Positions 24,529-45,000 are shown, counted from the stretch's first letter. The stretch is 64,000 nt of DNA from Caldanaerobius polysaccharolyticus DSM 13641 (GCF_000427425.1 NZ_KE386495.1:1105072-1169071); one strand, 5' to 3'. Notes: generated by a model not told the origin, from the letters alone. Program-made: numbers and translations.

Positions 24529-24558
24529 GTATAAATACCACTCCGGAGGGACATTTTA
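24529..24558 (+). promoter_or_regulatory. Candidate sigma-G/F promoter for spoIVB
   Basis: GTATA (24529-24533), 18-nt spacer and CATTTTA (24552-24558) match the forespore consensus gyATA-N17/18-CATnnTA. Transcription would begin near 24565. spoIVB is transcribed by sigma-G (and sigma-F) in B. subtilis. Confidence 0.52.
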
Positions 24559-24591
24559 TATTTGTAAGCCTATGAGGAGAGTGGTATTTAT
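24531..24591 (+). promoter_or_regulatory. Inverted repeat spanning the spoIVB promoter and start codon (read-through silencing hairpin)
   Basis: ATAAATACCACTC (24531-24543) is the exact complement of GAGTGGTATTTAT (24579-24591), 13 bp. The 3' arm covers the first two bases of the ATG at 24590 and the spacer after GAGGAG. The 5' arm lies between the -35 and -10 of the forespore promoter, so only longer transcripts from recN contain both arms. Function is inferred. Confidence 0.55.
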
Positions 24592-25861
24592 GCGTTTTAG
24601 AAAAATTGCCTGTACCGTTATAATTATTTTTATATTGGCAATAAACAATTCGCCGCTAATAAAAAACTTTGTGCAATTACCTGTTCATCAGATAGTATTC
24701 AAGGGAGAGGAATTTAAGTTAAACATAGGTTTTCCCATTTCTGTAAATATAAGAGCCAATAAAGATGGCATTATAAAAATAAATGATTTGTCAGAGAGAT
24801 ATAAGTATGTGCCTTTTTTATCTCGCTTTAGCGTAAAGGCAGAAGATGTCGGAAAGGCTATAATGAACTTTAAGCTGCTGGGCTTAATCCCTGTTAAAAA
24901 CGTGACGCTAGATGTGGTGCCCAGAAAGTACGTGATCGCTGGGGGAGAGTCTATAGGCGTGAGGATTAATACAAAAGGGGTTATTGTGGTGGGTTTTTCA
25001 GACATCACTGATCCTACGGGGAAAGCGCGCTGCCCTGGTAAAGAAGCAGGGGTGAGAGTGGGTGATACCCTTTTGAAGATAGACAACCAGGATATAAAAG
25101 ACAGCGATAGCATTGTAGACCTCTTAAGCAAAAAAGAAGGTAAAACATTATCGCTGCAAGTTCAGAGGGACCAGCGTGTGATACAATTAAAGGTAAACCC
25201 TGTAAAGTCAAGGGATGATGGCGAGTACAAATTAGGGCTGTGGGTAAGGGATCACACTTCTGGAATAGGAACTCTTACTTTTATAGATCCGGAAAACAAT
25301 AGATTTGGGGCTTTGGGACATCCTATAACGGATGTAGATACAGGACAGATGCTTTCTATAAGCGATGGAGATATTATGCGCGCTCATATTACATCCGTCA
25401 AACAAGGATACAAAAGTAGGCCAGGGGAGATTAAAGGCATATTTGTCGAAGGCGAAGATACCATAGGCAAAATAGAAAAAAATACTAAATACGGCATTTA
25501 TGGAACATTGTACGCCAGTCCATCGATTAAAAGATTGTATCCTATAGGGTATCAATCACAGGTAAAACCAGGTCCGGCCAAGATATTGACTACTATTGAA
25601 GGGGATAAGGTGGGGGAGTACGATATACAGATTCAAAAAGTAGTAAAACAGGATCAGCCTAATCCCAAGAGTATGATCATAAAAATAACCGATCCGTATT
25701 TGTTAAAGCGCACAGGAGGTATTGTTCAAGGGATGAGCGGAAGCCCTATAATCCAGGATAACCGGCTTGTAGGCGCAGTTACCCATGTTTTTATAAATGA
25801 CCCTACGAGGGGTTACGGTATTTATATTGAGTGGATGATTAGGGAGGCTGATAGAAAATAA
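24590..25861 (+). CDS. spoIVB: Stage IV sporulation protein B (signalling serine protease)
   Basis: Forespore-secreted S55 peptidase that triggers pro-sigma-K processing by cleaving SpoIVFA. The 423-aa product has an N-terminal membrane/signal helix, a PDZ domain near 105-200 (KEAGVRVGDTLLKIDNQDI), and the protease domain with the catalytic His in FGALGHPITD, Asp in ITDPYLL and Ser in QGMSGSPIIQ. ATG 24590 fits the GAGGAG site; ATG 24572 would lie only a few bases from the predicted transcript start. Conserved recN-spoIVB-spo0A order. Confidence 0.95.
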   Translation: MRFRKIACTVIIIFILAINNSPLIKNFVQLPVHQIVFKGEEFKLNIGFPISVNIRANKDGIIKINDLSERYKYVPFLSRFSVKAEDVGKAIMNFKLLGLIPVKNVTLDVVPRKYVIAGGESIGVRINTKGVIVVGFSDITDPTGKARCPGKEAGVRVGDTLLKIDNQDIKDSDSIVDLLSKKEGKTLSLQVQRDQRVIQLKVNPVKSRDDGEYKLGLWVRDHTSGIGTLTFIDPENNRFGALGHPITDVDTGQMLSISDGDIMRAHITSVKQGYKSRPGEIKGIFVEGEDTIGKIEKNTKYGIYGTLYASPSIKRLYPIGYQSQVKPGPAKILTTIEGDKVGEYDIQIQKVVKQDQPNPKSMIIKITDPYLLKRTGGIVQGMSGSPIIQDNRLVGAVTHVFINDPTRGYGIYIEWMIREADRK

Positions 25862-25876
25862 TTTATGGTAAAATAA

Positions 25877-25903
25877 GGAGGATTTTTGACTTTTATGTAG
25901 AAT
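25877..25903 (+). promoter_or_regulatory. Sigma-H promoter of spo0A
   Basis: GGAGGATTT (25877-25885), 11-nt spacer and GTAGAAT (25897-25903) fully match the sigma-H consensus RnAGGAwWW-11/12-RnnGAAT. This corresponds to the stationary-phase Ps promoter of spo0A. The same design precedes spoIIAA. Confidence 0.78.
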
Positions 25904-25941
25904 AATTGAAAAAGTAAAAATTGGTTTGAGGGAGGATTAAA

Positions 25942-26730
25942 TTGATCAGGTTATTGATAGTAGACGATAATAAGGAATTTTGTTCTATTTTAGCTGATTA
26001 CTTTAACAACGTAGAAGACGTAGACGTGGTGGGCATAGCCAATGATGGAAATCAAGCCATCAAATTGATCAAAGAACATAACCCCGATATTGTTTTGCTG
26101 GATATAATAATGCCATATTTAGATGGACTGGGGGTACTAGAATCGTTAAAGACCCTTAAATTGGCCAAATCGCCAAAGATCATAGTGCTCTCGGCAGTAG
26201 GTCAAGAAAGGATAACGCAAATGGCTATAAACTTAAATGTAGACTATTATATCCTCAAGCCTTTTGACCTTAATACGCTTTACAAGAGGATAAAAGAGAT
26301 TTTTATGTTGCCTCTTGACGGCCCGGTAAAAAGCCAATCGGATGGATTTAAATCTGATATCGATCAAATACGGTTGGAAGCCCAGATTACGGAGATCATC
26401 AATGAGATAGGGATACCTGCTCATATAAAAGGCTATTTGTATATAAGAGATGCTATATGTATGGTGGTAAATGACATGGATATGATAGGTGCTATAACTA
26501 AAAAACTATACCCGCGGATCGCGCTCAAATACAATACAACGCCCAGCAGGGTTGAAAGGGCGATAAGGCACGCAATAGAAGTAGCCTGGAACCATGGAAA
26601 ATTGGAGACTTTAAATGAGATTTTTGGCCGCACGATAGACGAGTACAAAGGCAAACCGACTAACTCTCAATTTATAGCGTTGCTTGCTGATAGGATGAGA
26701 CTTCAGCTCAGCATGAATAAAGCGGGGTGA
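25942..26730 (+). CDS. spo0A: Sporulation master regulator Spo0A
   Basis: Response regulator that commits the cell to sporulation. The 262-aa product has a receiver domain with acidic pocket Asp8-Asp9, phosphoacceptor Asp54 (LLDIIMP) and Lys106 (ILKPF), and a C-terminal DNA-binding domain with the recognition region [24 protein letters not shown] 25942 has GGGAGG 7 nt upstream. It is driven by a sigma-H promoter and presumably also by weak vegetative transcription from upstream. Confidence 0.98.
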
Positions 26731-26762
26731 TGGTGTTAAAATAAGCTCAGGAGGTGTTAAAA

Positions 26763-27686
26763 ATTCGTAAGAGATTGTTTTCTTTAGCCTTGTTGGTGTT
26801 TCTCCTGAGCGGTCTGGTATCCTGTACTACGGCTAAGAAAAAGCCTATTGTACCACAGAGGTACAAGCCGGAGCCCACCATATCTGTTTATATAGCCAAT
26901 GAAAACAGGGTAGAAAACATGAAGATTGAGGATTACATCCTGGGGGTTGTAGGAGGAGAGGTTAAAAATTACTGGCCGCAGCAGGTTTTAGAGGCCCAAG
27001 CTATTATAGCGCGGACGTTTACGTTAAAGAAGATGTCACAGGGTAAAACTTCCCACAATACTGATGCCAGTACAGATCCCAAGGAATTTCAGGCATACAA
27101 TCCTGCCAATATCAACGATAATATCAGAAAGGCTGTAAGAGCAACAAGGGGGGAGGTCATAACCTATAAGGGAAATTATATCAACGCGTATTTTCATTCT
27201 TATTCAGGTGGTAGGACTGCAACGGCGAAAGAAGGGTTGAATTTTACAAAGGAGCCAACACCTTACCTGACGGTGGTAAAAGACTACCCAGCAGCGGACA
27301 AAAGCGTGGTAAGCTGGAAAAATAGCTTTAGCAGGCAGGAGTTGATAAACGCATTGCAAACCTTGGGTTATAAAGTGAGCGAGATCAGTTCCTTTGAAAT
27401 AGCTAAAAAAGGACCTTCAGGAAGAGCGGAGCTTTTTAAGATAGGCAATGTGACAGTAAGTGGTCCCCAGCTGCGAATGGCGCTTAACCCGGATAAGTTT
27501 AGGTCAACTCTTATAACCGATATAAAACCTACAAGCGATGGTTTCGTCGTATCCGGCAAGGGATGGGGACATGGAGTAGGGATGTCGCAGTGGGGTGCCA
27601 ATACTATGGCGAAAAGAGGAGTATCTGCCGAAGATATAATAAAATATTACTTTAAAGGTATTGAGATAAAAAAGTTGTGGAAATAG
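26763..27686 (+). CDS. SpoIID/LytB-domain lipoprotein, possible AUU start
   Basis: A protein of about 307 aa with a lipoprotein signal (LLVFLLSGLVSC, lipobox L-V-S-C) and a SpoIID/LytB domain: MKIEDYILGVVGGEV, AQAIIARTFTLKK, YFHSYSGGRTATAKE and the C-terminal GKGWGHGVGMSQWGAN. SpoIID-family lytic transglycosylases cut denuded glycan strands during engulfment; a general wall role is also possible, so I do not assign spoIID itself. The ribosome site AGGAGG (26749-26754) best fits ATT at 26763; the in-frame GTG at 26754 lies in that site. A strong terminator follows. Confidence 0.82.
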   Translation: MRKRLFSLALLVFLLSGLVSCTTAKKKPIVPQRYKPEPTISVYIANENRVENMKIEDYILGVVGGEVKNYWPQQVLEAQAIIARTFTLKKMSQGKTSHNTDASTDPKEFQAYNPANINDNIRKAVRATRGEVITYKGNYINAYFHSYSGGRTATAKEGLNFTKEPTPYLTVVKDYPAADKSVVSWKNSFSRQELINALQTLGYKVSEISSFEIAKKGPSGRAELFKIGNVTVSGPQLRMALNPDKFRSTLITDIKPTSDGFVVSGKGWGHGVGMSQWGANTMAKRGVSAEDIIKYYFKGIEIKKLWK

Positions 27687-27710
27687 AACCATTATATGGT
27701 TCTATTTTTT
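27681..27710 (+). terminator. Rho-independent terminator
   Basis: AAATAGAACCA (27681-27691) and TGGTTCTATTT (27697-27707) form an 11-bp stem with a 5-nt loop and a T tract. Confidence 0.88.
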
Positions 27711-27718
27711 AATTGTTA

Positions 27719-27747
27719 TTTTATCGACTTTTTATTTGTGGTATAAT
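27719..27747 (+). promoter_or_regulatory. Extended -10 promoter for the steA-like operon
   Basis: TGGTATAAT (27739-27747) is a good extended -10; the -35 at 17-nt spacing (TTTTAT, 27719-27724) is poor. Confidence 0.48.
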
Positions 27748-27784
27748 TTAATTGATTATTAACTATGGAGGAAATAAAATTAAT

Positions 27785-28906
27785 ATGTATATAAAAGCAA
27801 AAGCCCAATTAGACAAAAAGACGAAAAATCTAGTCAAAAGGATAAGACCAGGGGAAATAGCTATAATAGACCATTGCGATTTGGATGAAGTGGCTGCAGA
27901 GTCTTTAGTGAATGCAAAAGTGAAGGCCGTTGTAAACGCCAGCAGGTTTATATCAGGCAAATACCCCAATCAAGGACCTCAGATACTGTTTAAAGCAGGG
28001 ATTTACATGTTGGACGACGTGGGCCCTGGTATATTTAATGCGGTAAAAAACGGAGATGAGATTGAAATTATTGACAATGAAGTGCACCGTAACGGCAACG
28101 TGATTGCCAAAGGGATGGTTCTTACAGGCGATGTGATAAGCTATATGCAACAGGAGGCCCAAAGGAATCTGGAAGAAGAACTGGACAAATTCATAGAGAA
28201 CACGCTGGAATACGCCAAAAAGGAAAAGTATTTTATAACCGAGAATTTACCCATGCCTGCCATCAAGACGCGCATACGAAACAGGCACGTGTTGGTAGTA
28301 GTAAGGGGAAAGGAATACAAAGAGGATTTGATGACAATAAGAGCGTATATTCAGGAAGTAAAACCCGTTTTAATTGGAGTAGATGGCGGAGCTGATGCAT
28401 TGCTGGAGTTTGGTTTTAAGCCTGACATCGTGGTGGGAGATATGGACAGTATAAGCGACAGAGGGCTATTGTCGGCTAGGGAAATAGTGGTCCACGCTTA
28501 TCCTGATGGCAGGGCACCGGGGCTTAAGAGGGTAAAGAGCCTGGGTTTAGAAGCTCATGTATTTGCGGCTCCAGGTACCAGCGAAGATATCGCCATGTTA
28601 CTGGCTTTTGAAAAGGGCGCAGATTTAATAGTGGCGGTGGGAAGCCATTCCAGCATGATTGATTTTTTAGAAAAAGGCAGAAAGGGTATGGCCAGTACTT
28701 TTTTGGTAAGATTGAAAATAGGCTCGAAACTGGTGGACGCCAAAGGTGTTAACAAATTATACAGGGGCAATTTAAAATTGAGTTATATAATAGGGCTTTT
28801 ACTTTCGGCTTTATTCCCCATAGTTATAGTGAGTATGGTATCTGCGCCTATGAAGCAGCTGCTGAGAATTATAGCTTTGAGAGTTAAATTGATTTTTGGC
28901 CTTTAG
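27785..28906 (+). CDS. steA: SteA-like putative cytokinetic ring protein
   Basis: A 373-aa protein with an N-terminal domain (PGEIAIIDHCDLDEVAAESLV), a thiamin-pyrophosphokinase-like middle (VLIGVDGGADALLEFGFKPDIVVGDMDS) and a C-terminal transmembrane helix (ISYIIGLLLSALFPIVIVSMV). This is the SteA architecture; in Corynebacterium SteA acts with SteB at the division septum. The catalytic role of the TPK fold is probably lost. ATG 27785 is used; GGAGG lies 13 nt upstream and would suit ATT at 27779 better. A SteB/MctB-like gene follows. Confidence 0.8.
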   Translation: MYIKAKAQLDKKTKNLVKRIRPGEIAIIDHCDLDEVAAESLVNAKVKAVVNASRFISGKYPNQGPQILFKAGIYMLDDVGPGIFNAVKNGDEIEIIDNEVHRNGNVIAKGMVLTGDVISYMQQEAQRNLEEELDKFIENTLEYAKKEKYFITENLPMPAIKTRIRNRHVLVVVRGKEYKEDLMTIRAYIQEVKPVLIGVDGGADALLEFGFKPDIVVGDMDSISDRGLLSAREIVVHAYPDGRAPGLKRVKSLGLEAHVFAAPGTSEDIAMLLAFEKGADLIVAVGSHSSMIDFLEKGRKGMASTFLVRLKIGSKLVDAKGVNKLYRGNLKLSYIIGLLLSALFPIVIVSMVSAPMKQLLRIIALRVKLIFGL

Positions 28907-28916
28907 GAGGGTTTAA

Positions 28917-29810
28917 ATGTTTATAAACTTGAAGTATTACGTCATAACCATTGCGGCAATTTTTATAGCTCTTGGCATCGGGATTTATATCGGATTTATG
29001 CTAGACGGACAGGATATATTTGTACATCAGCAGGATTCCCTGATCAACGAGCTAGAGAAGAGATTTAACCAATTTTCTGTTGAAAACAATAATCTCAAAA
29101 ACCAGATAAAAGACCTCAATGCCCGTTTAAAAAACGACGATTTGTATATAAACACCGTGTACCCAAGCCTGATCGATGGGAAGTTAAAAGATTTGAATGT
29201 GGCTATAATTGAAACCAATAGCGACTATATATACAGCGGCGTAAAAAATGTCATAAAAAGCGCCGGCGGAAACGTGATCAGTGAAGTAGACGTATATCCT
29301 TATGTGCTTTTAAACGATGACGTAAAAAAACAACAAATCGTCAATTACGCGGCCGTTAAAGGGGAGAATATATCCCAAGATAAAGTGGTGCAATACGTAT
29401 TAGAGAAAATCAGCCAGGCCCTTACCAAAAAGCCTGATATAAACGCGATGAGTTTTTTAAAAAATGAAGGCGTAATAGATTTTTCGGGGAACTTTGATGT
29501 TCCTCCTGATTACGTGATAATTTGCGGCGGCAGTTTGCAGAAAACTAATTATCCAGATATAATAGATATCCCTCTGATCAAGTTGTTGAGACAACAAAAT
29601 GTACCCATCGTCGGTGTAGAGAGGTCAGATGTGGCATTTTCCTATATAGACTATTACAAAAAAGTAAGGCTTTCTACAGTGGACAGCGTGGATTTGGTCT
29701 ACGGCAAGACGGCTTTGGTTTTTGCTATAAAAGGAGAACCGGGTAATTACGGCATAAAAAAATCAGCGACTTCAGGGTTGTTGCCTGATATACCGACAAC
29801 GGCAAAGTAG
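28917..29810 (+). CDS. MctB/SteB-like single-pass membrane protein
   Basis: A 297-aa protein with one N-terminal transmembrane helix (YYVITIAAIFIALGIGIYIGF) followed by a coiled coil (about 38-75) and an extracytoplasmic domain. The pattern 'FINLKYYVITIAAIF-LALGIGI' with coiled coil is typical of the MctB (copper transport outer-membrane) family, PF11382, which includes SteB. Being adjacent to a SteA-like gene, a division-septum role is more plausible here than copper transport. Function is inferred from context. Confidence 0.75.
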   Translation: MFINLKYYVITIAAIFIALGIGIYIGFMLDGQDIFVHQQDSLINELEKRFNQFSVENNNLKNQIKDLNARLKNDDLYINTVYPSLIDGKLKDLNVAIIETNSDYIYSGVKNVIKSAGGNVISEVDVYPYVLLNDDVKKQQIVNYAAVKGENISQDKVVQYVLEKISQALTKKPDINAMSFLKNEGVIDFSGNFDVPPDYVIICGGSLQKTNYPDIIDIPLIKLLRQQNVPIVGVERSDVAFSYIDYYKKVRLSTVDSVDLVYGKTALVFAIKGEPGNYGIKKSATSGLLPDIPTTAK

Positions 29811-29818
29811 GTGAGAAA

Positions 29819-30493
29819 GTGGATGTAAGTGTTTTAATACCTGCTTACAATGAAGAAAAGCGCATAGCGGATACTATTAAGGGCGTAAAAAGCGCGATTG
29901 ATTGCGAGTTAATAGTGATAAACGACGGATCTTCGGATGGTACTTCTGATGTCGCCAAAAACGAAGGCGTAAAGGTAGTAGATATGGTGTATAATAGGGG
30001 CAAAGGTAAAGCTTTAGAGGAAGGGATAAAGCACGCCAGAGGCGATGTCATAGTATTGCTTGACGCAGATCTAAGGGCGAGTGCCGCGGAGGTTATAAAA
30101 CTTATTGAGCCCATCGCAAAGGGAGAAGCAGATGTGGTCATTGCCCGATTCCCTGCTAGCACTAAAAGAGGAGGATTTGGGCTGGTAAAGGCATTATCCA
30201 GGTATGGGGTAAGGATTCTAACAGGTCAATACGTACACAGCGTGTTATCAGGTCAGAGGGCTTTTAAAAGGGATGTGATAAAGGATATATTGCCGTTTTC
30301 CCCTGGATTTGGTATAGAGGTCGGCATGACCATAGATGTTCTTCGCAGAGGATATCGGATAAAAGAGGTGGAAGTTAATATGTTCCACAATGAAACTTCA
30401 AGGGATTTAAAAGGCTTTTTGCACAGAGGAAGGCAGTTTAAAGATATACTCATAACGCTGCTTAAAAAGGCGAAAGGGTCGTGGCGCAAATGA
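29819..30493 (+). CDS. Glycosyltransferase family 2
   Basis: A 224-aa GT-A glycosyltransferase: N-terminal VSVLIPAYNEEKRIADTI, NDGSSDGTSD near 38-47 and the metal-binding DADLRAS near 83-89 (DxD). No membrane helices, so it probably transfers a sugar from a nucleotide donor to a lipid carrier at the cytosolic face, as in DPM1/DolP-type enzymes. It overlaps the next gene by 13 nt; together they suggest a two-step lipid-linked sugar pathway. Confidence 0.85.
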   Translation: MDVSVLIPAYNEEKRIADTIKGVKSAIDCELIVINDGSSDGTSDVAKNEGVKVVDMVYNRGKGKALEEGIKHARGDVIVLLDADLRASAAEVIKLIEPIAKGEADVVIARFPASTKRGGFGLVKALSRYGVRILTGQYVHSVLSGQRAFKRDVIKDILPFSPGFGIEVGMTIDVLRRGYRIKEVEVNMFHNETSRDLKGFLHRGRQFKDILITLLKKAKGSWRK

Positions 30494-31290
30494 TTTTTTT
30501 TGTTGTGTTGGCGGCAAGTATGCTGATGTCCTATTTTTTTGTGCCTTTGGTAGAGAAAATGCTGGTGGAGCTGAAGTGTACCTGCCCTAATTACAAAGGC
30601 GTAAATATACCTACAGCTATGGGGATTGCGGCAATTCCTGTGATCGTATTGTTACAAGCCATTTTGTACCTTTTTTTAAAAGATGTTAGGATTATAGCTA
30701 TAACGTTAAGCGCTGTTTTTATGGCATTGGTAGGTCTGCTGGATGACTTGGTGGGACAAAAAGATGTAAAAGGTTTTAAAGGGCACATCAGGGAGCTTTT
30801 GGGCGGCCGTCTGACAACAGGTGGGTTAAAAGCTATAGTAGGGTTTTTTACAGCGTTTTTTGTATCTGCGATTTTCTCCAGTACATATACAGACATTCTG
30901 CTGAACACAGTGCTTATATCGTTGTTTACCAATACCCTGAACTTATTGGATTTGAGGCCGGGAAGAGCCATCAAGTTTTTTGCGCTGGTATTTATAATAG
31001 AGAGCGTGTTTGCGTATAGGTACGCAGGGTTGCTGCTTCCTATTGTAGGTTTTATCTTGGTTTATTTTCCGTTAGATATAAAAGCCCGTGGGATGCTGGG
31101 AGATACAGGATCCAATTTGCTGGGGGCGGCATTGGGTGCGTTTACGGCGGTTTCTTTAAATTTCAATATAAGATTGGGGATTACGCTGTTACTGATTTTA
31201 ATTCACGTGATAGCAGAAAAGTATTCTATAACCAGGTTAATCGAAAAAAGTCGTGTGTTAAAATTTTTTGATGAACTGGGCCGGCGATAG
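30481..31290 (+). CDS. Glycosyltransferase family 4 (MraY/WecA-like phosphoglycosyl transferase)
   Basis: A 269-aa polytopic membrane protein (about eight helices) with the family's LLDDLVG motif, NTLNLLDLRPGRA (replacing the usual NxxNLxDGLDGLA) and ARGMLGDTGSN. These enzymes move a sugar-1-phosphate from a UDP-sugar to undecaprenyl phosphate. It is shorter than MraY (about 320 aa) and belongs to a divergent group seen next to steA/steB genes. The altered DGLDG motif makes the substrate uncertain. Confidence 0.78.
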   Translation: MAQMIFFVVLAASMLMSYFFVPLVEKMLVELKCTCPNYKGVNIPTAMGIAAIPVIVLLQAILYLFLKDVRIIAITLSAVFMALVGLLDDLVGQKDVKGFKGHIRELLGGRLTTGGLKAIVGFFTAFFVSAIFSSTYTDILLNTVLISLFTNTLNLLDLRPGRAIKFFALVFIIESVFAYRYAGLLLPIVGFILVYFPLDIKARGMLGDTGSNLLGAALGAFTAVSLNFNIRLGITLLLILIHVIAEKYSITRLIEKSRVLKFFDELGRR

Positions 31291-31295
31291 GTCTA

Positions 31296-31348
31296 TTTAG
31301 ATCCCCCTTAGCTGTAAAATAATATAGGAATCTTTAAGGGGGCTTAAA
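31296..31348 (+). promoter_or_regulatory. RBS-sequestering hairpin before the L,D-transpeptidase gene
   Basis: CCCCCTTA (31303-31310) pairs with TAAGGGGG (31335-31342), which is the ribosome site of the gene starting at 31350; TTTA (31296-31299) and TAAA (31345-31348) extend the stem. A weak promoter (TTTAGA 31296-31301, 16 nt, AATAAT 31318-31323) would again put the 5' arm in the promoter spacer. An 8-bp stem is not significant alone; its position is. Confidence 0.35.
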
Positions 31349-31349
31349 G

Positions 31350-32051: not shown

Positions 32052-32060
32052 GGTGGGTGG

Positions 32061-36767: not shown

Positions 36768-36776
36768 ACATTAATA

Positions 36777-37147: not shown

Positions 37148-37575
37148 GCGTAAAAAACGAGATGAAGATAGAATTTATGAGCAAATCTCAAAATGAGGCT
37201 TTTGCTCGAATAGTTATTGCTGCGTTTGTGTCTCAGCTGGATCCTACTATTGAAGAACTTGCTGACATCAAAACAGCGGTTTCAGAAGCTGTTACTAATT
37301 CTATAATACACGGCTATGAGGGGAAGAGCGGTTATATTAAAATGAACGCGAGGCTGTTGGACGATGACACGGTAGAGATAGAGGTTATAGATGAGGGAAA
37401 GGGAATAGAAAACGTGGAAGAAGCGAGGAAGCCGCTTTTTACTACAAAGCCAGAACTGGAACGTTCGGGTATGGGATTTACCATTATGGAGACATTTATG
37501 GATAGCCTTGATGTGTATTCTGAGCTAGGCAAGGGGACCAAAGTGGTTATGACTAAGAGGATCAAGAGGAGTTGA
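37144..37575 (+). CDS. spoIIAB: Anti-sigma-F factor / serine kinase SpoIIAB
   Basis: A 143-aa GHKL-type kinase with the N box [15 protein letters not shown], the G1 box DEGKGIENV and the G2 box RSGMGFTIM. It binds sigma-F and phosphorylates SpoIIAA. Length and operon position fit exactly. Confidence 0.97.
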
Positions 37576-37579
37576 TAGG

Positions 37580-38338
37580 ATGTCCGACAGTTCCTCGGTG
37601 ATGCCCGATGATGTCTTAAGGGAATATTTAAAAAAAGCCCAGAACGGCGATGAGAAGGCTCAAGAAGTAATTGTCAACAATAATATGGCGCTGGTGTGGA
37701 GCATTGTAAAGAGGTTTTTGAACAGAGGTTACGAAGCAGAGGATTTAGTTCAAATCGGTTGTGTAGGGCTTATAAAAGCTATAAAAAAGTTTGACTGCAG
37801 TTATAACGTAAAATTTTCTACATATGCTGTTCCTATAATTATGGGAGAAATAAAGCGCTTTTTAAGGGATGACGGAATGATAAAGGTCAGCCGTTCTTTA
37901 AAGGAGACGTCTACAAAAGTAAAGTACGTAAGGGATAGTTTAACAAAAAAACTTAACAGAGAGCCTACTGTAAACGAGATAGCGGATGAATTAAGACTTC
38001 CTGTGGACGATGTTATCATGGCTATAGATTCTAGCTCATCAGTGGATTACTTATACGATTACGTGAACGAGGATGAGTCCAAGGTGTTAATGGACACGCT
38101 GGTCAGCAATGACCGGGTTGATGAAAGTATCGTGGAGAGAATAGCCTTGAAAGACGTGCTGAACTCTCTAGATGAATACGAGAAAAATTTGATTATAATG
38201 AGGTATTTTCAGGAAAAAACGCAGGTGGAAATTGCGGCTGCATTGGGGATTTCTCAGGTACAGGTTTCACGATTAGAAAAAAAGATTTTATCTAAATTGA
38301 GGAAAGAACTTAGCGCTAATTCTGACTATTTTGTATAA
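37580..38338 (+). CDS. sigF: Forespore sigma factor F
   Basis: A 252-aa sigma-70 family factor with region 2 (VWSIVKRFLNRGYEAEDLVQIGC and STYAVPIIMGEIKRFLRDD), region 3 and region 4 (EKTQVEIAAALGISQVQVSRLEKKIL). It directs early forespore transcription. It starts 4 nt after spoIIAB. Its stop codon overlaps the -35 of the next promoter. Confidence 0.97.
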   Translation: MSDSSSVMPDDVLREYLKKAQNGDEKAQEVIVNNNMALVWSIVKRFLNRGYEAEDLVQIGCVGLIKAIKKFDCSYNVKFSTYAVPIIMGEIKRFLRDDGMIKVSRSLKETSTKVKYVRDSLTKKLNREPTVNEIADELRLPVDDVIMAIDSSSSVDYLYDYVNEDESKVLMDTLVSNDRVDESIVERIALKDVLNSLDEYEKNLIIMRYFQEKTQVEIAAALGISQVQVSRLEKKILSKLRKELSANSDYFV

Positions 38339-38362
38339 AAAACGGTTGAACGCCCCATAATA
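38333..38362 (+). promoter_or_regulatory. Candidate sigma-G/F promoter for the 49-codon gene
   Basis: GTATA (38333-38337, overlapping the sigF stop), 18-nt spacer and CATAATA (38356-38362) match the forespore consensus; the same geometry is found at spoIVB. Start of transcription near 38369. Confidence 0.55.
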
Positions 38363-38380
38363 AACCCAGAGGTGATCGGT

Positions 38381-38530
38381 ATGAAAAATTTTAATTGGAA
38401 ATCTCTTGTTATAATTTTATTGATAGCATTAATAGGCACTACTACCTGGCTGTATTACACCAATAAATCTGCGGATAAAATTCCTGAAAAAGCTAGGCTG
38501 GTAATGGCAGAGGATTATCGAAGGTGTTAA
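38381..38530 (+). CDS. Small membrane protein of 49 aa, forespore-expressed candidate
   Basis: ATG 38381 follows AGAGGTGATC and opens a 49-codon frame: a short basic N-terminus (MKNFNWK), one transmembrane helix (SLVIILLIALIGTTTWLYY) and a short charged tail (IPEKARLVMAEDYRRC). It lies between a forespore-type promoter and a terminator whose stem overlaps the 3' end, so it is probably a single-gene transcript. The product is not recognised. Position between sigF and the spoVA genes is where B. subtilis has spoVAA/spoVAB, but it does not resemble either. Confidence 0.62.
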   Translation: MKNFNWKSLVIILLIALIGTTTWLYYTNKSADKIPEKARLVMAEDYRRC

Positions 38531-38555
38531 GTGTCGATAGTCCTCTTTTATTTTT
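38509..38555 (+). terminator. Terminator overlapping the end of the 49-codon gene
   Basis: AGAGGATTATCGA (38509-38521) pairs with TCGATAGTCCTCT (38534-38546), 13 bp with one G-U, followed by a T-rich tract. Confidence 0.72.
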
Positions 38556-38632
38556 CAAATATCACCTGCGAATAGTTTTTGCCGCTAGGGCAAAACATAT
38601 AGATGTAATGCATTATAAGGGAGGTATTGAAA
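38553..38632 (+). promoter_or_regulatory. Leader structures before the dodecin gene
   Basis: Two elements: an inverted repeat TTTTGCC/GGCAAAA (38577-38583 and 38589-38595), and an imperfect long-range pairing of 38553-38567 with 38618-38632, which contains the ribosome site AAGGGAGG and the A of the start codon. A candidate forespore -10 (CATATAG, 38596-38602) lies between the arms but its -35 (GAATA, 38570-38574) is spaced too far (21 nt). Confidence 0.25.
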
Positions 38633-38844
38633 TGGCTGTGGTTAACGTGCTTAACATCGTGGGCGATTCAACCATCAGTTGGGATGATGCTATACACAAG
38701 GCGGTTCAGGAAGCGTCAAAAACCGTAAAGAACATCTCAGGCATTGAAATAAAAAACCAGACGGCAAATGTCAAAGACGGCAAAATAGTGGAGTATAAGG
38801 CCAATATAGAAATAGCGTACAGGGTTGATGGCAATAACCTGTAA
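38632..38844 (+). CDS. Dodecin family protein
   Basis: A 70-aa protein with the dodecin fold pattern: VNVLNIVGDSTISWDDAIHKAVQEASKTVKNISGIEI then the strand KIVEYKANIEIAYRVD. Dodecins form 12-mers that store flavin or CoA. ATG 38632 follows AAGGGAGG by 7 nt; in-frame codons further upstream fall in a leader with hairpins and are rejected. Here it lies immediately upstream of spoVAC with only a weak hairpin between, so it may be co-expressed with the spore DPA-uptake genes. Confidence 0.88.
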   Translation: MAVVNVLNIVGDSTISWDDAIHKAVQEASKTVKNISGIEIKNQTANVKDGKIVEYKANIEIAYRVDGNNL

Positions 38845-38848
38845 CTGA

Positions 38849-38885
38849 GAGCACCTCACAGGTGCTCATTGTTGTTCAGTTTTTC
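38849..38885 (+). other. Short hairpin between dodecin and spoVAC
   Basis: GAGCACCT (38849-38856) pairs with AGGTGCTC (38860-38867); the T tract is weak. GCACCTC of the same 5' arm could instead pair with the spoVAC ribosome site GAGGTGC (38888-38894), so two exclusive folds are possible. Confidence 0.35.
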
Positions 38886-38903
38886 TGGAGGTGCATTTTT
38901 GCG

Positions 38904-39359
38904 ATGGACAGGACGCAACAGGTTGTAGATCAGAAAGAATACCAGAAGCTTGTTAACCAAAAAGAACCTAAGCCCACTTTATTGAAAAATATAGTGTGGG
39001 CGTTTATCGTGGGCGGTTTGATATGTGTTCTTGGGCAGGTCTTTTTAAACTATTTTGTGTCTAAAGGGATAAGCCCTAAAGAAGCGGGTACACCTGTAGC
39101 GATAATTATGGTGTTTTTAGGCGCTTTTTTTACAGGCCTTGGATGGTATGACCTGCTGGGGAAAGTAGCAGGAGCCGGATCTGTTGTTCCTATAACAGGC
39201 TTTGCTAATTCAGTAGTCTCTCCTGCTATGGAGTTTAGAAGAGAGGGTCTAGTGATGGGAGTGGGAGCCAAGATGTTTTTGATTGCAGGGCCTGTTATCG
39301 TATTTGGCGTCATAACATCGGCAGCGGTGGGATTGATATATTATCTTTTTGCTAGGTAA
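38904..39359 (+). CDS. spoVAC: Stage V sporulation protein AC
   Basis: A 151-aa membrane protein with about four helices and the SpoVAC motif KVAGAGSVVPITGFANSVVSPAMEFRREG. SpoVAC forms a mechanosensitive channel for dipicolinic acid transport in the spore inner membrane. ATG 38904 has GGAGGTG about 12 nt upstream. First of spoVAC-D-E(b), the minimal spoVA set of Clostridia. Confidence 0.95.
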   Translation: MDRTQQVVDQKEYQKLVNQKEPKPTLLKNIVWAFIVGGLICVLGQVFLNYFVSKGISPKEAGTPVAIIMVFLGAFFTGLGWYDLLGKVAGAGSVVPITGFANSVVSPAMEFRREGLVMGVGAKMFLIAGPVIVFGVITSAAVGLIYYLFAR

Positions 39360-39378
39360 GCAATAAGAGGTGATGCAA

Positions 39379-40392
39379 ATGGCTGTAAAGAAGATAGGAA
39401 GGCAGACGGTTAAGTTACAAAATCCGCCTTCTGTGCTAGCGTACGCATCGGTAGTCGGCCCAAAAGAAGGAGAAGGACCACTTAAGGAATATTTTGATCA
39501 AATACTGCAGGACGATTACGTAGGTGAGAACAGTTGGGAAAAAGCTGAATGCAAGATATTACAGCAGGCTATAATGTTGGCAATGCAAAAAGCAAAAATC
39601 ACAGTGGGAGATGTGGATTATCTCCTTGCCGGGGATCTTTTAAATCAGATCATATCCTCTAGTTTTACCGCAAGACAGTACCAAATTCCCTATATAGGTT
39701 TGTATGGGGCGTGTTCTACTATGAGCGAATCGCTGAGCCTTGGAGCGTTGCTCATAGATGGAGGATTTGCGGATTACGTGATCGCAGCTACATCCAGTCA
39801 CTTTTCCTCGGCAGAAAGGCAGTACAGATTTCCACTGGAATTAGGCACCCAAAGACCGCTGACAGCCCAATGGACAGTTACAGGAGCAGGAGCCACTGTG
39901 CTTTGTTCTACAGGCGATGGGCCTTATATAACGTATGTCACTACTGGAAGGGTAATGGATTTAGGTATAAAGGATGCCAATAATATGGGAGCTGCGATGG
40001 CTCCGGCCGCTGTGGATACTATTAAAGCACATTTTAGTGACACCGGATTTGGACCGAAGGATTATGATTTGATTATAACGGGGGATCTAGCCAAGGTAGG
40101 TAAGGAATTGACGCTGGAGCTTTTAAAAAAGGACGGTATAGATATAAGCGAAATCTATACGGATTGCGGAATTGAGATATACGACTGTGAAAAGCAAGAT
40201 ACCCATGCAGGCGGCAGTGGCTGCGGGTGCTCGGCAGCGGTTCTCAATGGTTACATTTTTACTGAAATGAAAAAGGGTACGTTCAAGAGGGTTCTATTTA
40301 TGGCTACTGGAGCACTGCTTTCTCCTACCAGCAGTCAGCAGGGGGAATCTATACCGGGAATCGCTCATGCCGTGACAATTGAGATGGGGTGA
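39379..40392 (+). CDS. spoVAD: Stage V sporulation protein AD
   Basis: A 337-aa cytosolic thiolase-fold protein (YIGLYGACSTMSESLSLGALLID near the centre and GGSGCGCSAAVLNGY near the C-terminus). SpoVAD binds dipicolinic acid and lacks thiolase chemistry. ATG 39379 follows AGAGGTGATG; two more in-frame starts exist just upstream. It overlaps spoVAE only slightly. Confidence 0.95.
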   Translation: MAVKKIGRQTVKLQNPPSVLAYASVVGPKEGEGPLKEYFDQILQDDYVGENSWEKAECKILQQAIMLAMQKAKITVGDVDYLLAGDLLNQIISSSFTARQYQIPYIGLYGACSTMSESLSLGALLIDGGFADYVIAATSSHFSSAERQYRFPLELGTQRPLTAQWTVTGAGATVLCSTGDGPYITYVTTGRVMDLGIKDANNMGAAMAPAAVDTIKAHFSDTGFGPKDYDLIITGDLAKVGKELTLELLKKDGIDISEIYTDCGIEIYDCEKQDTHAGGSGCGCSAAVLNGYIFTEMKKGTFKRVLFMATGALLSPTSSQQGESIPGIAHAVTIEMG

Positions 40393-40399
40393 GGTAAAA

Positions 40400-40756
40400 G
40401 TGAGTTATCTTAAAGCTTTTATTGTAGGCGGCATTATATGCGCCATAGCTCAAATACTTATAGATAAAACTAAATTGACGTCTGCGAGGGTACTGGTCAT
40501 GTACGTAGTGACAGGGGCAATCCTGAGCGGATTGGGTATTTACCAAAAACTAGTAGATTTCGCAGGGGCAGGCGCTACGATTCCCTTGACTGGCTTTGGG
40601 CATTCTCTCGTACAGGGCACATTAAAGGCCGTCAAAGAGCAGGGTATAATAGGGATATTTACAGGCGGATTTCAAGCCGGTGCTGGTGGCTTGGGTGCTG
40701 CTGTGGTTTTCGGGTATCTTTTTGGTATTTTGTTTAAACCAAAGACAAAGCCTTGA
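40400..40756 (+). CDS. spoVAE: Stage V sporulation protein AE (SpoVAEb type)
   Basis: A 118-aa membrane protein with about four helices, similar to SpoVAC (LVDFAGAGATIPLTGFGHSLVQGTLKAVKE). Part of the DPA channel complex. GTG 40400 follows GGGGTGAGGT. Its stop overlaps the -35 of the next promoter. Confidence 0.93.
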   Translation: MSYLKAFIVGGIICAIAQILIDKTKLTSARVLVMYVVTGAILSGLGIYQKLVDFAGAGATIPLTGFGHSLVQGTLKAVKEQGIIGIFTGGFQAGAGGLGAAVVFGYLFGILFKPKTKP

Positions 40757-40781
40757 TTTATAGGAGTGTAGATTGTATAAT
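40753..40781 (+). promoter_or_regulatory. Sigma-A promoter for the M50-scpA-scpB operon
   Basis: TTGATT (40753-40758), 17-nt spacer, TATAAT (40776-40781). Confidence 0.68.
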
Positions 40782-40814
40782 AAATAGTACTTAAAGACAA
40801 GGTGAGGGAATTTT

Positions 40815-41417
40815 GTGGATATTTTAGTATATTTATACCGAATACCTGCGCTTTTGCTGGCGATGTCGTTTCATGAATACGCTCATGGGTTGGTTTCGTA
40901 CAAGTTGGGCGACCCCACTCCAAAAGTCCAGGGGCGCCTCACATTAAATCCCCTGGCCCATATCGATCCAGTGGGTTTTCTTGCCCTGTGGATTGTCGGT
41001 TTTGGATGGGCTAAACCTGTGATGATAAATCCCATATACTATAAAGACGCGAAAAAGGGTGAACTCCTCACAGCGGCAGCAGGGCCTCTTTCCAATGTCA
41101 TTATGGCTTTTGTAAGCCTTTTGTTGATAAACATAGGAGGGTATAATGTAGCTATTTTAGGCCCTATTTTATACCAGCTATACATTTACAATGTGGTGCT
41201 GGCTGTTTTTAATATCATCCCGGTTCCTCCTCTTGACGGCTCAAAAGTGTTGTACTCTTTGCTGCCTTATAGGTATTCTTATGCCTTTACACAATATGAG
41301 AACGTGGGTCAAATAATTTTATTGATCTTGCTGTTTACAGGGATGATCTCAAGGATAATGAATCCATTGGTTAATCTTCTTGATCTCTGGTTAAGGTCTA
41401 TTATAACGGCGATATGA
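40815..41417 (+). CDS. Site-2 protease family protein (M50)
   Basis: A 200-aa membrane zinc metalloprotease of the short M50 type (YwhC-like), with the active-site HEYAH in the first helix and NIIPVPPLDGSKVL carrying the third ligand. About five helices. The substrate is unknown; such proteins are widely encoded directly upstream of scpAB. GTG 40815 has AAGGTGAGG upstream. It overlaps the scpA region by a few bases. Confidence 0.9.
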   Translation: MDILVYLYRIPALLLAMSFHEYAHGLVSYKLGDPTPKVQGRLTLNPLAHIDPVGFLALWIVGFGWAKPVMINPIYYKDAKKGELLTAAAGPLSNVIMAFVSLLLINIGGYNVAILGPILYQLYIYNVVLAVFNIIPVPPLDGSKVLYSLLPYRYSYAFTQYENVGQIILLILLFTGMISRIMNPLVNLLDLWLRSIITAI

Positions 41418-41428
41418 AGGTGTTGGAA

Positions 41429-42181
41429 GTGAATTATATAGTCAAATTAGATGACTTTGAAGGGCCACTGGATCTGCTGGTATATTTGATAGAGAAATCA
41501 AAGGTTGATATCGCCCATATTTCAATTAACAGCATAGCAGATCAGTACCTTGAGTACATAAAGAATATGGATTCCATAAATATGGATGTGGCTAGCGACT
41601 TTTTAGTTATGGCATCTACGCTTTTGAAGTTAAAGTCAGAGAGCCTCCTTCCCAAGAGGCAAATCCAAGATAAACAGTTGAGCATTGATGAAACAGATCC
41701 TCAGGAAATCTTACGGCAAAGGTTAGTGGAGTATAAAAAGTATAAAGCCCGTGCTCAAAAGCTGGCCGGCAATTATGAAGCCCAGAGGTCTTTTTATAGA
41801 AATAGTCCTGTTTTGATGAATGATTTTCAAATGATTAGATTTAAACTAAAGGAAATCCCTTTAAAAAAGCTTACAGGCGCTTATGCAAAGCTCGTTAGAG
41901 AAAAACAAAACAGCGCGATTCAGCGGAGGATAGCGCATAATCACATAAAAGCTATGAAACCTATAAATATTGAGGAAAAGATAGAGTTTTTAAAGCGGAT
42001 TATATGCATAAGAAAGACCATAACGTTTTATTATCTAATGGATATATCCCGTGAGAGAAGTGAGATTATCGCTTACTTTTTGGCTGTGTTGGAGATGCTC
42101 AGACTGAGACAGATATATGCTTTCCAAAAGAAAAACTTCGGCGATATCGTTTTGAAGGGTGTGGTTGAAGGTGACAGATGA
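41429..42181 (+). CDS. scpA: Segregation and condensation protein A
   Basis: A 250-aa kleisin of the SMC-ScpAB complex, with the N-terminal YIVKLDDFEGPLDLLVYLIEK signature, an acidic linker and the C-terminal winged helix (YFLAVLEMLRLRQIYAFQ). It bridges SMC heads and organises the chromosome. GTG 41429 is favoured (AAGGTG upstream); ATG 41414 is in frame. Confidence 0.96.
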   Translation: MNYIVKLDDFEGPLDLLVYLIEKSKVDIAHISINSIADQYLEYIKNMDSINMDVASDFLVMASTLLKLKSESLLPKRQIQDKQLSIDETDPQEILRQRLVEYKKYKARAQKLAGNYEAQRSFYRNSPVLMNDFQMIRFKLKEIPLKKLTGAYAKLVREKQNSAIQRRIAHNHIKAMKPINIEEKIEFLKRIICIRKTITFYYLMDISRERSEIIAYFLAVLEMLRLRQIYAFQKKNFGDIVLKGVVEGDR

Positions 42182-42677
42182 GGAAATAAAAGGAGCGATA
42201 GAGGCGATTTTGTTTTTGTCAGGCTCTAAAGTAAGGAAGGAGGAACTGACCAATTATTTTTCAATAGACGAGAAGCACCTGGAGTCCATCGTAGAAAGTA
42301 TAAATGAAGAAGCTGAGGTAAACAAACGGGGCATCATTATATCAAAGGTAGACGATGGCTATCAAATGGGCACAAGTCCGCGGGTTCACGATTGTGTAGC
42401 GGACTTCTTTAGCATAGAGCGGGAATTGGATTTGTCCCAGGCTGCACTGGAGGTGCTGGCGATCGTAGCTTATAACCAACCTGTGACAAGGCAACAGATA
42501 GAGGAGATAAGGGGAGTGCGCAGCGACAAAGCTATTGCTACGCTGTTGGAAAGGGGGCTTATTGCGGAAGTGGATAGGCTTGATTCCATAGGCCATCCTA
42601 TAGTGTATGGTACCACTGACGAATTTTTAAGGTGTTTTAATTTAAAAAGCATTGAGGATTTAAAAGCATTAGAATAA
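42171..42677 (+). CDS. scpB: Segregation and condensation protein B
   Basis: A 168-aa protein with two winged-helix domains (EIKGAIEAILFLSGSKV; QAALEVLAIVAYNQPVTRQQIEEIRGV). Dimers bind ScpA. GTG 42171 overlaps scpA by 11 nt. The stop codon overlaps the -35 of a forespore-type promoter. Confidence 0.96.
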   Translation: MTDEEIKGAIEAILFLSGSKVRKEELTNYFSIDEKHLESIVESINEEAEVNKRGIIISKVDDGYQMGTSPRVHDCVADFFSIERELDLSQAALEVLAIVAYNQPVTRQQIEEIRGVRSDKAIATLLERGLIAEVDRLDSIGHPIVYGTTDEFLRCFNLKSIEDLKALE

Positions 42678-42701
42678 TTATACAAAATAAAGTCCATACT
42701 T
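42672..42701 (+). promoter_or_regulatory. Candidate sigma-G/F promoter for ytfI-ytfJ-dacB
   Basis: GAATA (42672-42676), 18-nt spacer and CATACTT (42695-42701) match TGAATA-17/18-CATACTA with one mismatch in the -10. Transcription would start near 42708, only a few bases before the ribosome site. Confidence 0.52.
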
Positions 42702-42729
42702 TCTTTATGAAAGGAGGACTTTATTTTGT
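42682..42729 (+). promoter_or_regulatory. Perfect 14-bp hairpin hiding the ytfI start (read-through silencing hairpin)
   Basis: ACAAAATAAAGTCC (42682-42695) is the exact complement of GGACTTTATTTTGT (42716-42729). The 3' arm contains the end of the ribosome site and the whole TTG start (42726-42728); an inner stem CTTTC/GAAAG (42699-42703 and 42709-42713) pairs the rest of the AAAGGAGG. The 5' arm lies in the promoter spacer, so RNA from the forespore promoter lacks it. A weak terminator role of the same stem is an alternative. Confidence 0.62.
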
Positions 42730-43409
42730 ATGTTCTCGTGGTTTTATTGGTACTCATTGCCATCATTTTTGCACCTTTAAGGTTTAACCTGACGCTGATG
42801 AGATTAGGAGACGATGATTTAGTAAAGATCTCCATAGACGTGTATTACATAAAGGTGCTAAGGGTTGAAATAGACTATGTGGATCTATTGGCCCAAAAAG
42901 ATCATAAGGGCTTAAGGTATAATATCATTTTAAGATACGTGTTCCCTATTTTACTCAACAAAAGCGATAAAAAGCAATTTAGCTATGATAAAATAAGGAA
43001 GATAATAAAAGACATAGTTGCTTTTAGATTTAAATACCGCAGAGGTATAGATTACATATTAGAGAATGTAACGGTGAAAAAATTTGAGCTATCAGCCTCT
43101 GTAGGGCTTCGCGATGCCGCTATGACTGCTATTGTCACAGGAGCCCTGTATGCCCTTATAAATTCTTTTCTGGCTTGTGCTTCCTCGTACATCAAGTTTA
43201 CAGATATGCCTTTGATTTCTATTAAACCGGACTTTGGGCGTTTAAACTTTGAATTGTCCATCACGAGTATAATTGCGACGAGATTAGCTCAAATTATTAT
43301 CGGAAGCTTTTTGATATTATTAGGAGGTATGAGCTATGAGCGAACATCCAATGGATGGTTTGATGAAGACGACCATGGAAAGCTTAAAGGATATAGTAGA
43401 TGTCAATAA
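42726..43409 (+). CDS. ytfI: DUF2953 family protein (YtfI-like)
   Basis: A 227-aa protein with an N-terminal transmembrane helix (VLVVLLVLIAIIFAPL) and a DUF2953 domain containing a second hydrophobic segment near 135-155 and one near 190-205. It is linked to ytfJ in sporulating Firmicutes and probably acts in spores; its activity is unknown. TTG 42726 follows AAAGGAGG by 8 nt. It overlaps ytfJ by 74 nt. Confidence 0.83.
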   Translation: MYVLVVLLVLIAIIFAPLRFNLTLMRLGDDDLVKISIDVYYIKVLRVEIDYVDLLAQKDHKGLRYNIILRYVFPILLNKSDKKQFSYDKIRKIIKDIVAFRFKYRRGIDYILENVTVKKFELSASVGLRDAAMTAIVTGALYALINSFLACASSYIKFTDMPLISIKPDFGRLNFELSITSIIATRLAQIIIGSFLILLGGMSYERTSNGWFDEDDHGKLKGYSRCQ

Positions 43410-43782
43410 AATAGTGGGAGATCCCGTGGAAACCCCTGATGGATCAGTAATAATACCTGTGTCAAAATTAAGCTTTGGCTACGCTGCAGGGGGCGGTGAG
43501 TATGAGATCAAGAAAAAGAAAGAACCTAAAGATAGCCCAGAGCAAGAGGGATCTGATAAAGGCAGTGCTTCCAAGCCTTTTGCTGGGGGTAGTGGTGCAG
43601 GGGTCACCATTAGACCTGTGGCATTCCTGGTGGTAGGTCAAGGTCAGATAAAATTATTGCCCGTTGATACCAATGTAACGTTAGATAAAGTTATCGACTT
43701 GATACCTGAATTAATGGATGATGTACAGAGCTTTTTGAAATCTAAAAACAATACTGCGGCTTCCCCTGGTGTTTCTCAATAG
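43336..43782 (+). CDS. ytfJ: GerW family sporulation protein (YtfJ-like)
   Basis: A 148-aa protein of the GerW/YtfJ family: N-terminal LMKTTMESLKDIVDVNKIVGDPVETPDG, VIIPVSKLSFGYAAGGGEY, a variable Gly/Ser/Lys linker, and ITVRPVAFLVV-like core. In B. subtilis YtfJ is a forespore protein needed for normal germination. ATG 43336 has TAGGAGG and lies in the end of ytfI. Confidence 0.92.
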   Translation: MSEHPMDGLMKTTMESLKDIVDVNKIVGDPVETPDGSVIIPVSKLSFGYAAGGGEYEIKKKKEPKDSPEQEGSDKGSASKPFAGGSGAGVTIRPVAFLVVGQGQIKLLPVDTNVTLDKVIDLIPELMDDVQSFLKSKNNTAASPGVSQ

Positions 43783-43791
43783 GGTGATTTG

Positions 43792-44915
43792 ATGAAAAGG
43801 CTAGGATTTATTTTTGCTCTAATTGCCTTATTTCAGGTGTTTTTTAATTGTGGCCCAGTACAAGCAGTTCAGACTCCCCCTGAGATAAGCGCAAAAGCGG
43901 CGGTGGTAATGGAGGCCAGTACAAGGAGGATACTATATGCAAAAAACGAGGATTTAAGACTCCCTATGGCTAGCACCACCAAGATAATGACTGCTATACT
44001 GGCTGTTGAAAAAGGTAGGTTGGACGATACCGTCAGTGTATCTCATAAGGCTGTATACGTGGAAGGCTCTAAAATTTATTTAAAGCCAGGGGAAAAATAA
44101 AACTGGAAGACCTGATATATGGGGTGATGCTGGAATCGGGAAATGATGCGGCCATTGCTGTGGCAGAGCATATAGGAGGAAGTTTGGATAATTTTGTGCA
44201 CATGATGAATGCCAAGGCCTTGAGCATAGGGGCATATGATACCCATTTCAACAATCCCCACGGCCTGGATTCGGGCATCGAAGATCATTTTACCACTGCT
44301 AAAGATCTAGCGTTGATAACGGCGTATGCATTAAGAAACCCGATTTTTTCTAAGATCGTATCAACTAAAACTAAGACGATATCATCTAGTGGCGTTGAAA
44401 AAAGATATTTTTCCAACCATAATAAGATGTTATGGATATATCCAGGCGCTGATGGGGTAAAGACAGGCTATACCAGGAAAGCAGGCAGGTGCCTTGTTAC
44501 ATCTGCTACTAGGGACGGCATGCAATTGATCGTAGTCACTCTCAACGACCCCAACGATTGGAAAGATACAGAAAACCTTTTAAACTACGGATTTGAAAAT
44601 TTTAAATACAGAAAGATTGTATCTAAAGGCGATGTGTTAAAGGTCTTACCTGTATACAATGGCAGACAACAGCGCATATCATTAACAGCTTCATCGGATG
44701 TTTATTTGCCTGTTGGAGACAATGAGTTCTCTACTCTCAAAATTAAGTTTATGGTACCTGCTTATTTTTACGCGCCTATATATAAGGGGACGAAATTAGG
44801 ATATGCAGCTATATATGTAGGGGAAAAGAGGATAGCATTGGTAGATCTTTTGGCTTCTGAGTCCATAGATGAGGATAAATCGAATCTTATAGGTATTTTA
44901 AAGAGCATAATCTAG
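43792..44915 (+). pseudogene. dacB: D-alanyl-D-alanine carboxypeptidase (DacB type), interrupted by a one-base deletion
   Basis: The first part (43792-44100) has a signal peptide and the SxxK motif in ASTTKIMTA, and ends in YLKPGEK. The second part (from 44101, other frame) continues as LEDLIYGVMLESGNDAAIAVAE (SGN motif) and DGVKTGYTRKAG (KTG motif) to a PBP5-like C-terminal domain. Inserting one A in the A5 run at 44093-44097 restores GEKIKLEDLIYG and a full product of about 374 aa. Either a homopolymer sequencing error or a real mutation. It follows ytfJ, as the spore-cortex carboxypeptidase gene often does in Clostridia. Confidence 0.9.
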
Positions 44916-44935
44916 TCCTTATCAGGGCTTTTTTT
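44914..44935 (+). terminator. Terminator after dacB
   Basis: AGTCCT (44914-44919) and AGGGCT (44924-44929) form a 6-bp stem (one G-U) with a 4-nt loop and a T7 tract. Confidence 0.72.
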
Positions 44936-44938
44936 GTA

Positions 44939-44965
44939 ACAAAAAGTCAACGCATTCATAACATA
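44939..44965 (+). promoter_or_regulatory. Candidate sigma-K promoter for the redox pair
   Basis: AC (44939-44940), 16-nt spacer and CATAACATA (44957-44965) match the sigma-K pattern AC-N16/17-CATAnnnTA. Transcription would begin near 44972. The -35 is too short to be decisive. Confidence 0.38.
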
Positions 44966-45000
44966 GTAATTAGAGGTGCTCATGGAGGTGAATGCGTTGA
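44947..45000 (+). promoter_or_regulatory. Perfect 12-bp hairpin hiding the start of the redox gene (read-through silencing hairpin)
   Basis: TCAACGCATTCA (44947-44958) is the exact complement of TGAATGCGTTGA (44989-45000), which includes the TTG start at 44997-44999; the ribosome site GGAGG (44984-44988) lies beside it in the loop. The 5' arm is inside the candidate promoter spacer, as at spoIVB and ytfI. Confidence 0.55.

Follow-up and report, generated by a model that had tools for sequence, protein, structure and literature searches.

How can a spore-forming bacterium, in which two compartments run two gene programmes from often neighbouring chromosomal genes during sporulation, keep the products of one programme out of the other? 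With leaky transcription, the mother cell would acquire SpoIIQ, or the forespore sigma-K. The question is raised by a 64,000-nucleotide stretch of the Caldanaerobius polysaccharolyticus DSM 13641 genome (GCF_000427425.1 NZ_KE386495.1:1105072-1169071; the window), in which three perfect inverted repeats each lay one arm over the start codon of a gene, namely spoIVB (site 1), a ytfI-like gene (site 2) and a gene for a PRK05802-type protein (site 3). Judging from sequence and predicted folding, we consider that each repeat probably serves as a read-through silencer, with the start exposed only in RNA from the gene's own sporulation promoter. RNA entering from the upstream gene would hold both arms, whose pairing would bury the Shine-Dalgarno (SD) sequence and the start codon in a hairpin, so that no translation would ensue, and RNA from the sporulation promoter would start within or past the 5' arm, form no hairpin and be translated. 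A forespore or mother-cell protein would thus be confined to its own timed promoter, even behind a weak or absent terminator. The relevant features are as follows:

22807-24513, plus strand: recN, co-directional and upstream of spoIVB (Pfam SMC_N; recN identity from gene order)
24529-24558, plus strand: predicted sigma-G-type spoIVB promoter (GTATA 24529-24533, 18 nt, CATTTTA 24552-24558)
24531-24543, plus strand: 5' arm of site 1 (13 bp, loop 35; inverted-repeat search)
24579-24591, plus strand: 3' arm of site 1, over the SD at 24576-24582 and the ATG at 24590
24590-25861, plus strand: spoIVB (Pfam Peptidase_S55 and PDZ)
42159-42677, plus strand: scpB, upstream of the ytfI-like gene (Pfam)
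42672-42700, plus strand: predicted promoter of the ytfI-like gene (GAATA at 42672, 15 nt, GTCCATACT at 42692; motif by eye, spacing the same in the sister species G001)
42680-42695, plus strand: 5' arm of site 2 (16 bp, loop 20; inverted-repeat search)
42699-42713, plus strand: inner CTTTC/GAAAG stem of site 2 (5 bp), kept in the sister species despite a loop indel
42716-42731, plus strand: 3' arm of site 2, over the SD at 42710-42718 and the TTG at 42726
42726-43409, plus strand: ytfI-like gene (DUF2953; Pfam)
43336-43782, plus strand: ytfJ/gerW family gene, after the ytfI-like gene (NCBIfam)
44936-44965, plus strand: predicted sigma-K/E-like promoter of site 3 (GTAAC, 16 nt, CATAACATA at 44957)
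44947-44958, plus strand: 5' arm of site 3 (12 bp, loop 30; inverted-repeat search)
44989-45000, plus strand: 3' arm of site 3, beside the SD at 44984-44990 and over the TTG at 44997
44997-45959, plus strand: PRK05802-type sulfide/dihydroorotate-dehydrogenase-like FAD/NAD protein (NCBIfam NF004470, 397 bits, cut-off 313)

All three repeats had been noticed in the original prediction, whose lengths are right for sites 1 and 3 and too short for site 2 (16 bp rather than 14), and which correctly placed one arm of each on a start codon. At the three sites, as in the orthologues discussed below, the 3' arm covers the SD, the start codon or both, and the arm sequences of the three sites are unrelated to one another. 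The genes that bear such hairpins are preceded by co-directional genes, including recN, scpB, the dacF-like gene, spoIID, a U32 peptidase gene and a sigE-like gene (some of these names come from gene order only). The dacF-like locus, behind which the site 3 gene sits, encodes a D-Ala-D-Ala carboxypeptidase in two open reading frames (43789-44100 and 44124-44915), a split that resembles a frameshift or an early stop.

Could these repeats simply be a few chance matches selected from many positions? Among repeats whose loops span 20-60 nt, these three rank as the longest in the window, save for one 12-bp repeat at 59925, where a direct repeat (59925-59976, AAAATAAAGGAT) also yields an inverted repeat near 59970. 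The window contains five repeats with stems of 12 bp or more and loops of 15-60 nt, against a mean of 0.18 in block-wise dinucleotide shuffles, in agreement with the earlier estimate that they exceed chance. We then called genes crudely in the window and in 400 kb of the same genome sampled at even spacing, and at the resulting 522 starts looked for perfect stems with a 3' arm lying at least partly over the SD/start region; shuffled upstream DNA was the control. Stems of at least 9, 10, 11 and 12 bp were found at 13, 8, 6 and 5 starts, against 4.75, 1.5, 0.42 and 0.08 in the shuffles, and the enrichment of start-covering repeats that had been predicted is thus present. Besides the three window sites, the list includes spoIIQ, which follows spoIID, and pbpI, with 9 bp each, the latter encoding a class B penicillin-binding protein behind the U32 peptidase gene (both names by similarity to the B. 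subtilis gene order). Because about five chance matches of at least 9 bp are expected per 522 starts, such single 9-bp cases prove nothing and needed support from orthologues. That orthologues repeat the architecture with new arms and compensatory changes, together with the excess at 12 bp and above, makes a chance origin of the whole very unlikely.

The rest of the survey list comprises insertion sequence (IS) transposases, a SocA-like antitoxin gene, a palindrome and a few probable chance matches. The transposase starts, of an ISLre2-type (L109:4625-4675) and an IS30-type element (L107:8970-9038), lie under inverted repeats, an IS version of the device, and an 11-bp repeat covers the start of the SocA/Panacea-like antitoxin gene (L100:520-594). 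The palindrome (13377-13408; 14 bp with a 4-nt loop and no T-run) lies between an Asp23-like gene and the gene at 13412, and is found in the sister species too (L096:3168-3201).

As for the promoters, whose identities and start points we infer from short motifs, the 5' arm falls within the predicted sporulation promoter, on it or ahead of it, and hence above its predicted start point, which is why RNA from that promoter should lack it. As the arm of site 1 overlaps -35, and those of sites 2 and 3 extend into -10, the earlier suggestion that the 5' arm lies between -35 and -10 is roughly right; the arm may also cover the -10 element or sit upstream of the promoter. The spoIVB promoter motif passes a strict scan and has the same spacing in the sister species, the site 2 motif is sigma-F-like, with a sigma-E reading possible, and that of site 3 is kept in the sister species as CATAAATTA, with a related element in other genera. 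Just 7 of 435 starts are preceded by the strict sigma-F/G motif, those of spoIVB and spoIIQ included.

The predicted cost of opening the start region at 65 C is 3.3-13.7 kcal/mol in read-through RNA and 0.2-5.2 kcal/mol in own-promoter RNA (24 hairpin cases), whereas at a spoIIQ locus without a hairpin it is 1.9 versus 0.5. The genome background for this difference, computed against an arbitrary 25-nt leader, has a mean of 1.3 and a 99th percentile of 7.1. These energies bear on the idea that the hairpin forms in the gene's own transcript as a leader device, such as an RNA thermometer, a riboswitch or a damping hairpin. Promoters further upstream than predicted would indeed leave both arms in that transcript, and for B. 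subtilis a small hairpin has been documented at the ribosome-binding site (RBS) of the sigG RNA made from its own promoter (PMC5942855). Against this, the best promoter motifs overlap the 5' arms, and opening energies stay low for the predicted own transcripts. Likewise, the arms are gene-specific, with no common aptamer-like sequence, and no Rfam match lies at the sites, the sole match in the window being a full-length OLE RNA (RF01071; 17604-18207) downstream of an ispA-like gene. We hence regard such a leader device as unlikely.

The read-through silencer can further be examined in orthologues, for which we compared 24 genomes from six genera and three families of the order (families f1-f3; individual genera are denoted g2-g4). 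In the sister species, which belongs to the same genus, 8 of the 11 changed pairs in seven genes are still paired, two of them through changes on both sides (in pbpI), giving a binomial p of ~0.009 if one third of unconstrained changes are assumed to keep pairing. The spoIVB and site 3 hairpins are both kept there, each with two pairs turned into G.U (A-U pairs in the case of site 3). Across the three families, the starts of spoIVB, pbpI, spoIIQ and sigG are covered by hairpins that differ in their arms and share one topology. Thus, the co-variation of arms expected by the original prediction is seen both between close relatives and as recurrent topology across the order, and it is pairing rather than sequence that is conserved at these starts.

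This is well illustrated by spoIVB, which has a hairpin in each of the three families, the arms being mutually unrelated. In f1 the ATAAATRCCACTC arm lies in the promoter spacer, and so does the 5' arm of the CCCACTTTAAG/CTTAAAGTGGG hairpin of f3. The 5' arm of the CTCACTTCCTTTT/AAAAGGAAGTGAG hairpin in g3 is upstream of the promoter, with a loop of ~75 nt, and g4 has an AT-rich AATTTAATCA hairpin over the -10 element. The pbpI hairpin is the most consistent, with p<=0.015 at 21 of 23 loci and p 0.04 in the window species; one truncated locus is uninformative. Two double compensatory changes separate its G000 arms (ACCCGATCT/AGATCGGGT) from those of G001 (ACCCAGTCT/AGACTGGGT), and in f2 there are double changes at three of nine pairs, with 96% of cells paired, a covariation score that three of 500 shuffles, and none of the slid controls, matched.

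The spoIIQ hairpins occur in f1, f3, g4 and one g3 species, and those of sigG in f1, f3 and g3, the sigG 5' arm abutting a GGCAATA-type -10. Some other genes are weakly supported or have hairpins in some lineages only: ytfI in g2/g4; spoIIR in f3, f2 being mostly negative apart from g4 candidates; and sigK, directly behind pbpI, in f1 and one f3 genome, with the 5' arm before a CATA-type -10. In f2 the 5' arm of sigK would fall in pbpI coding DNA, with p ~0.01-0.06 in g3. For spoIIID in f1, 10-11 pairs can be drawn by eye, to which shuffling gives no significance. Beyond the order the evidence is patchy. Phylum-wide, spoIVB reaches p<=0.05 at 8 of 66 loci (3.3 expected) and p<=0.01 at four, with few strong cases; outside the order, pbpI is strong at 2 of 15 (L327, p 0.003; L337, p 0.013), the rest being by eye only.

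The location of inverted repeats on promoters also suggests DNA operators to which SpoVT, SpoIIID or a similar regulator of sporulation would bind. However, we found no operator motif shared among the arms, either between genes or, for one gene, between genera, and the complementarity is kept regardless. In addition, the spacing of the arms ranges from 9 to ~77 nt, with the 3' arm tracking the SD and start. These features render operators extremely unlikely.

If the hairpins silence read-through RNA, they would be expected to alternate with terminators, because both would stop read-through expression. Among 47 loci of four genes, no terminator is present at 23 of the 27 with a strong hairpin, and one is present at 12 of the 20 without; the two are anti-correlated (Spearman -0.50; Fisher odds ratio 0.12, p 0.002), with a p-value that is too small because related genomes were counted as independent. 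The exchange is visible separately in spoIVB and in spoIIQ, and strong hairpins and terminators thus tend to replace each other. The same comparison bears on the possibility that the repeats are themselves intrinsic terminators or remnants thereof. Terminators do exist in these intergenic regions, and one of them accounts for the spoVAC match described next. However, the start-covering repeats mostly have loops of 20-77 nt (20-35 at the window sites) and their 3' arm, located on the SD, is not followed by a T-run, whereas genuine terminators are found ahead of the promoter and tend to take the hairpin's place. We therefore find a terminator origin scarcely credible.

The spoVAC match arose from 80 gene pairs compared between the window and the corresponding sister region, of which only spoIVB, site 3 and spoVAC were significant in both species. 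We rejected spoVAC, as its structure is a terminator, similar in the sister species:

38850-38905: terminator GAGCACCT/AGGTGCTC before spoVAC, whose 5' arm could alternatively pair with the SD GAGGTGC

For spo0A, directly behind spoIVB, no significant hairpin was found in 12 of 13 genomes, and gpr, chosen a priori as a forespore test, lacked one at all 23 loci. These negatives, with those of the gene pairs, indicate that the device is selective and not a property of every start. A further long dyad, of ~21 pairs at 52979-53031 (with a perfect 17-bp stem in the sister species, L098:2788-2840), lies just upstream of the SD without covering it, ahead of a gene for an unknown 138-aa protein at 53047, with a CATA-type -10 possibly in its loop.

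Several observations weigh against read-through silencing. Apart from the inflated significance of the terminator test, many but not all hairpin cases exceed the 99th percentile of the opening-energy background. Site 3 is below it, with small predicted gains (8.8 versus 4.5 and 7.4 versus 5.2 kcal/mol), and its gene is not proven to be a sporulation gene. Both the sigma assignments and the start points derive from motifs, of which only those of spoIVB and spoIIQ pass the strict scan. Further, as leaders are 10-30 nt long, the 5' arm of any start-covering hairpin is almost forced to lie upstream of the transcription start, which makes placement weak evidence; covariation and terminator exchange are the stronger facts. 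Some hairpins are not significant singly, namely those of spoIIQ in G000 (p 0.36), ytfI in G001 (p 0.25), sigG in G001 (p 0.20) and spoIVB in g4. Finally, the device is found at several sporulation genes and not at all of them, as seen in gpr and in sigG, which has no hairpin in two genera and in one of these, g4, no terminator either. Even so, the read-through interpretation that was originally proposed is supported.

What might such a device mean for sporulation? In B. subtilis, pbpI, ytfI/ytfJ, spoIIQ and spoIIR have roles in the forespore, and spoIID, spoIIID and sigK in the mother cell. We consider it an evenly balanced proposition that in many spore formers compartment-specific genes whose upstream neighbours belong to a different compartment or time bear bespoke read-through hairpins, a translational insulation that arose independently at each gene, interchanges with terminators, and lets one operon-like array (spoIID-spoIIQ-spoIIID; pbpI-sigK) serve two cells. 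A hairpin present only in leaked RNA would explain how neighbours are kept separate without strong terminators, would allow gene-by-gene prediction of mutations that cause expression at the wrong time or in the wrong compartment, and would provide a straightforward signature in the sequence by which sporulation promoters could be found.

Related logic is known from several systems. In IS10-type elements, the full inverted repeat is present only in outside-derived RNA, where an RBS hairpin hides the transposase start; that arrangement protects selfish elements, while the genes considered here are host developmental genes, though IS starts in this genome are repeat-covered as well. In yeast, long undecoded transcript isoforms (LUTIs) are longer, upstream-started RNAs that are not translated into protein. 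LUTIs are deliberate regulatory RNAs that rest on upstream open reading frames and chromatin, in contrast to start-site hairpins directed against leakage. A closer parallel is gene e of phage T4 (also soc, 49 and I-TevI), where, as proposed here, a long early RNA hides the start and RNA from a promoter on the arm is translated; for gene e the logic was shown experimentally, with a 100-fold effect, and in related phages the hairpin's 5' strand carries the promoter (PMC3014915). T4 uses it for phage genes with a late promoter, and the present hairpins, on chromosomal sporulation genes with gene-specific arms, would apparently guard both compartment and time. The closest precedent comes from the same developmental system: according to PMC5942855, which cites Masuda et al. 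1988, a hairpin of at least 20 bp has been proposed to block translation of spoIIG read-through RNA at B. subtilis sigG, and RNA from PsigG cannot form it. The original prediction, which knew of no account of a general device in spore formers, had missed this direct precedent. The sigG proposal concerns one gene in one species, whereas here a shorter version at sigG is accompanied by separate hairpins on spoIVB, pbpI, spoIIQ, ytfI and others. A literature search for a general description, which reached few subscription journals, yielded the sigG and T4 cases only, and no account of such a hairpin on spoIVB, pbpI, spoIIQ, ytfI or sigK, or of its recurrence, was found there. Given that the search returned sigG and T4 only, we view the device as known logic of apparently new breadth: the mechanism itself is not new, and what appears to be new is its recurrent use at sporulation genes that lie behind the genes of another programme.

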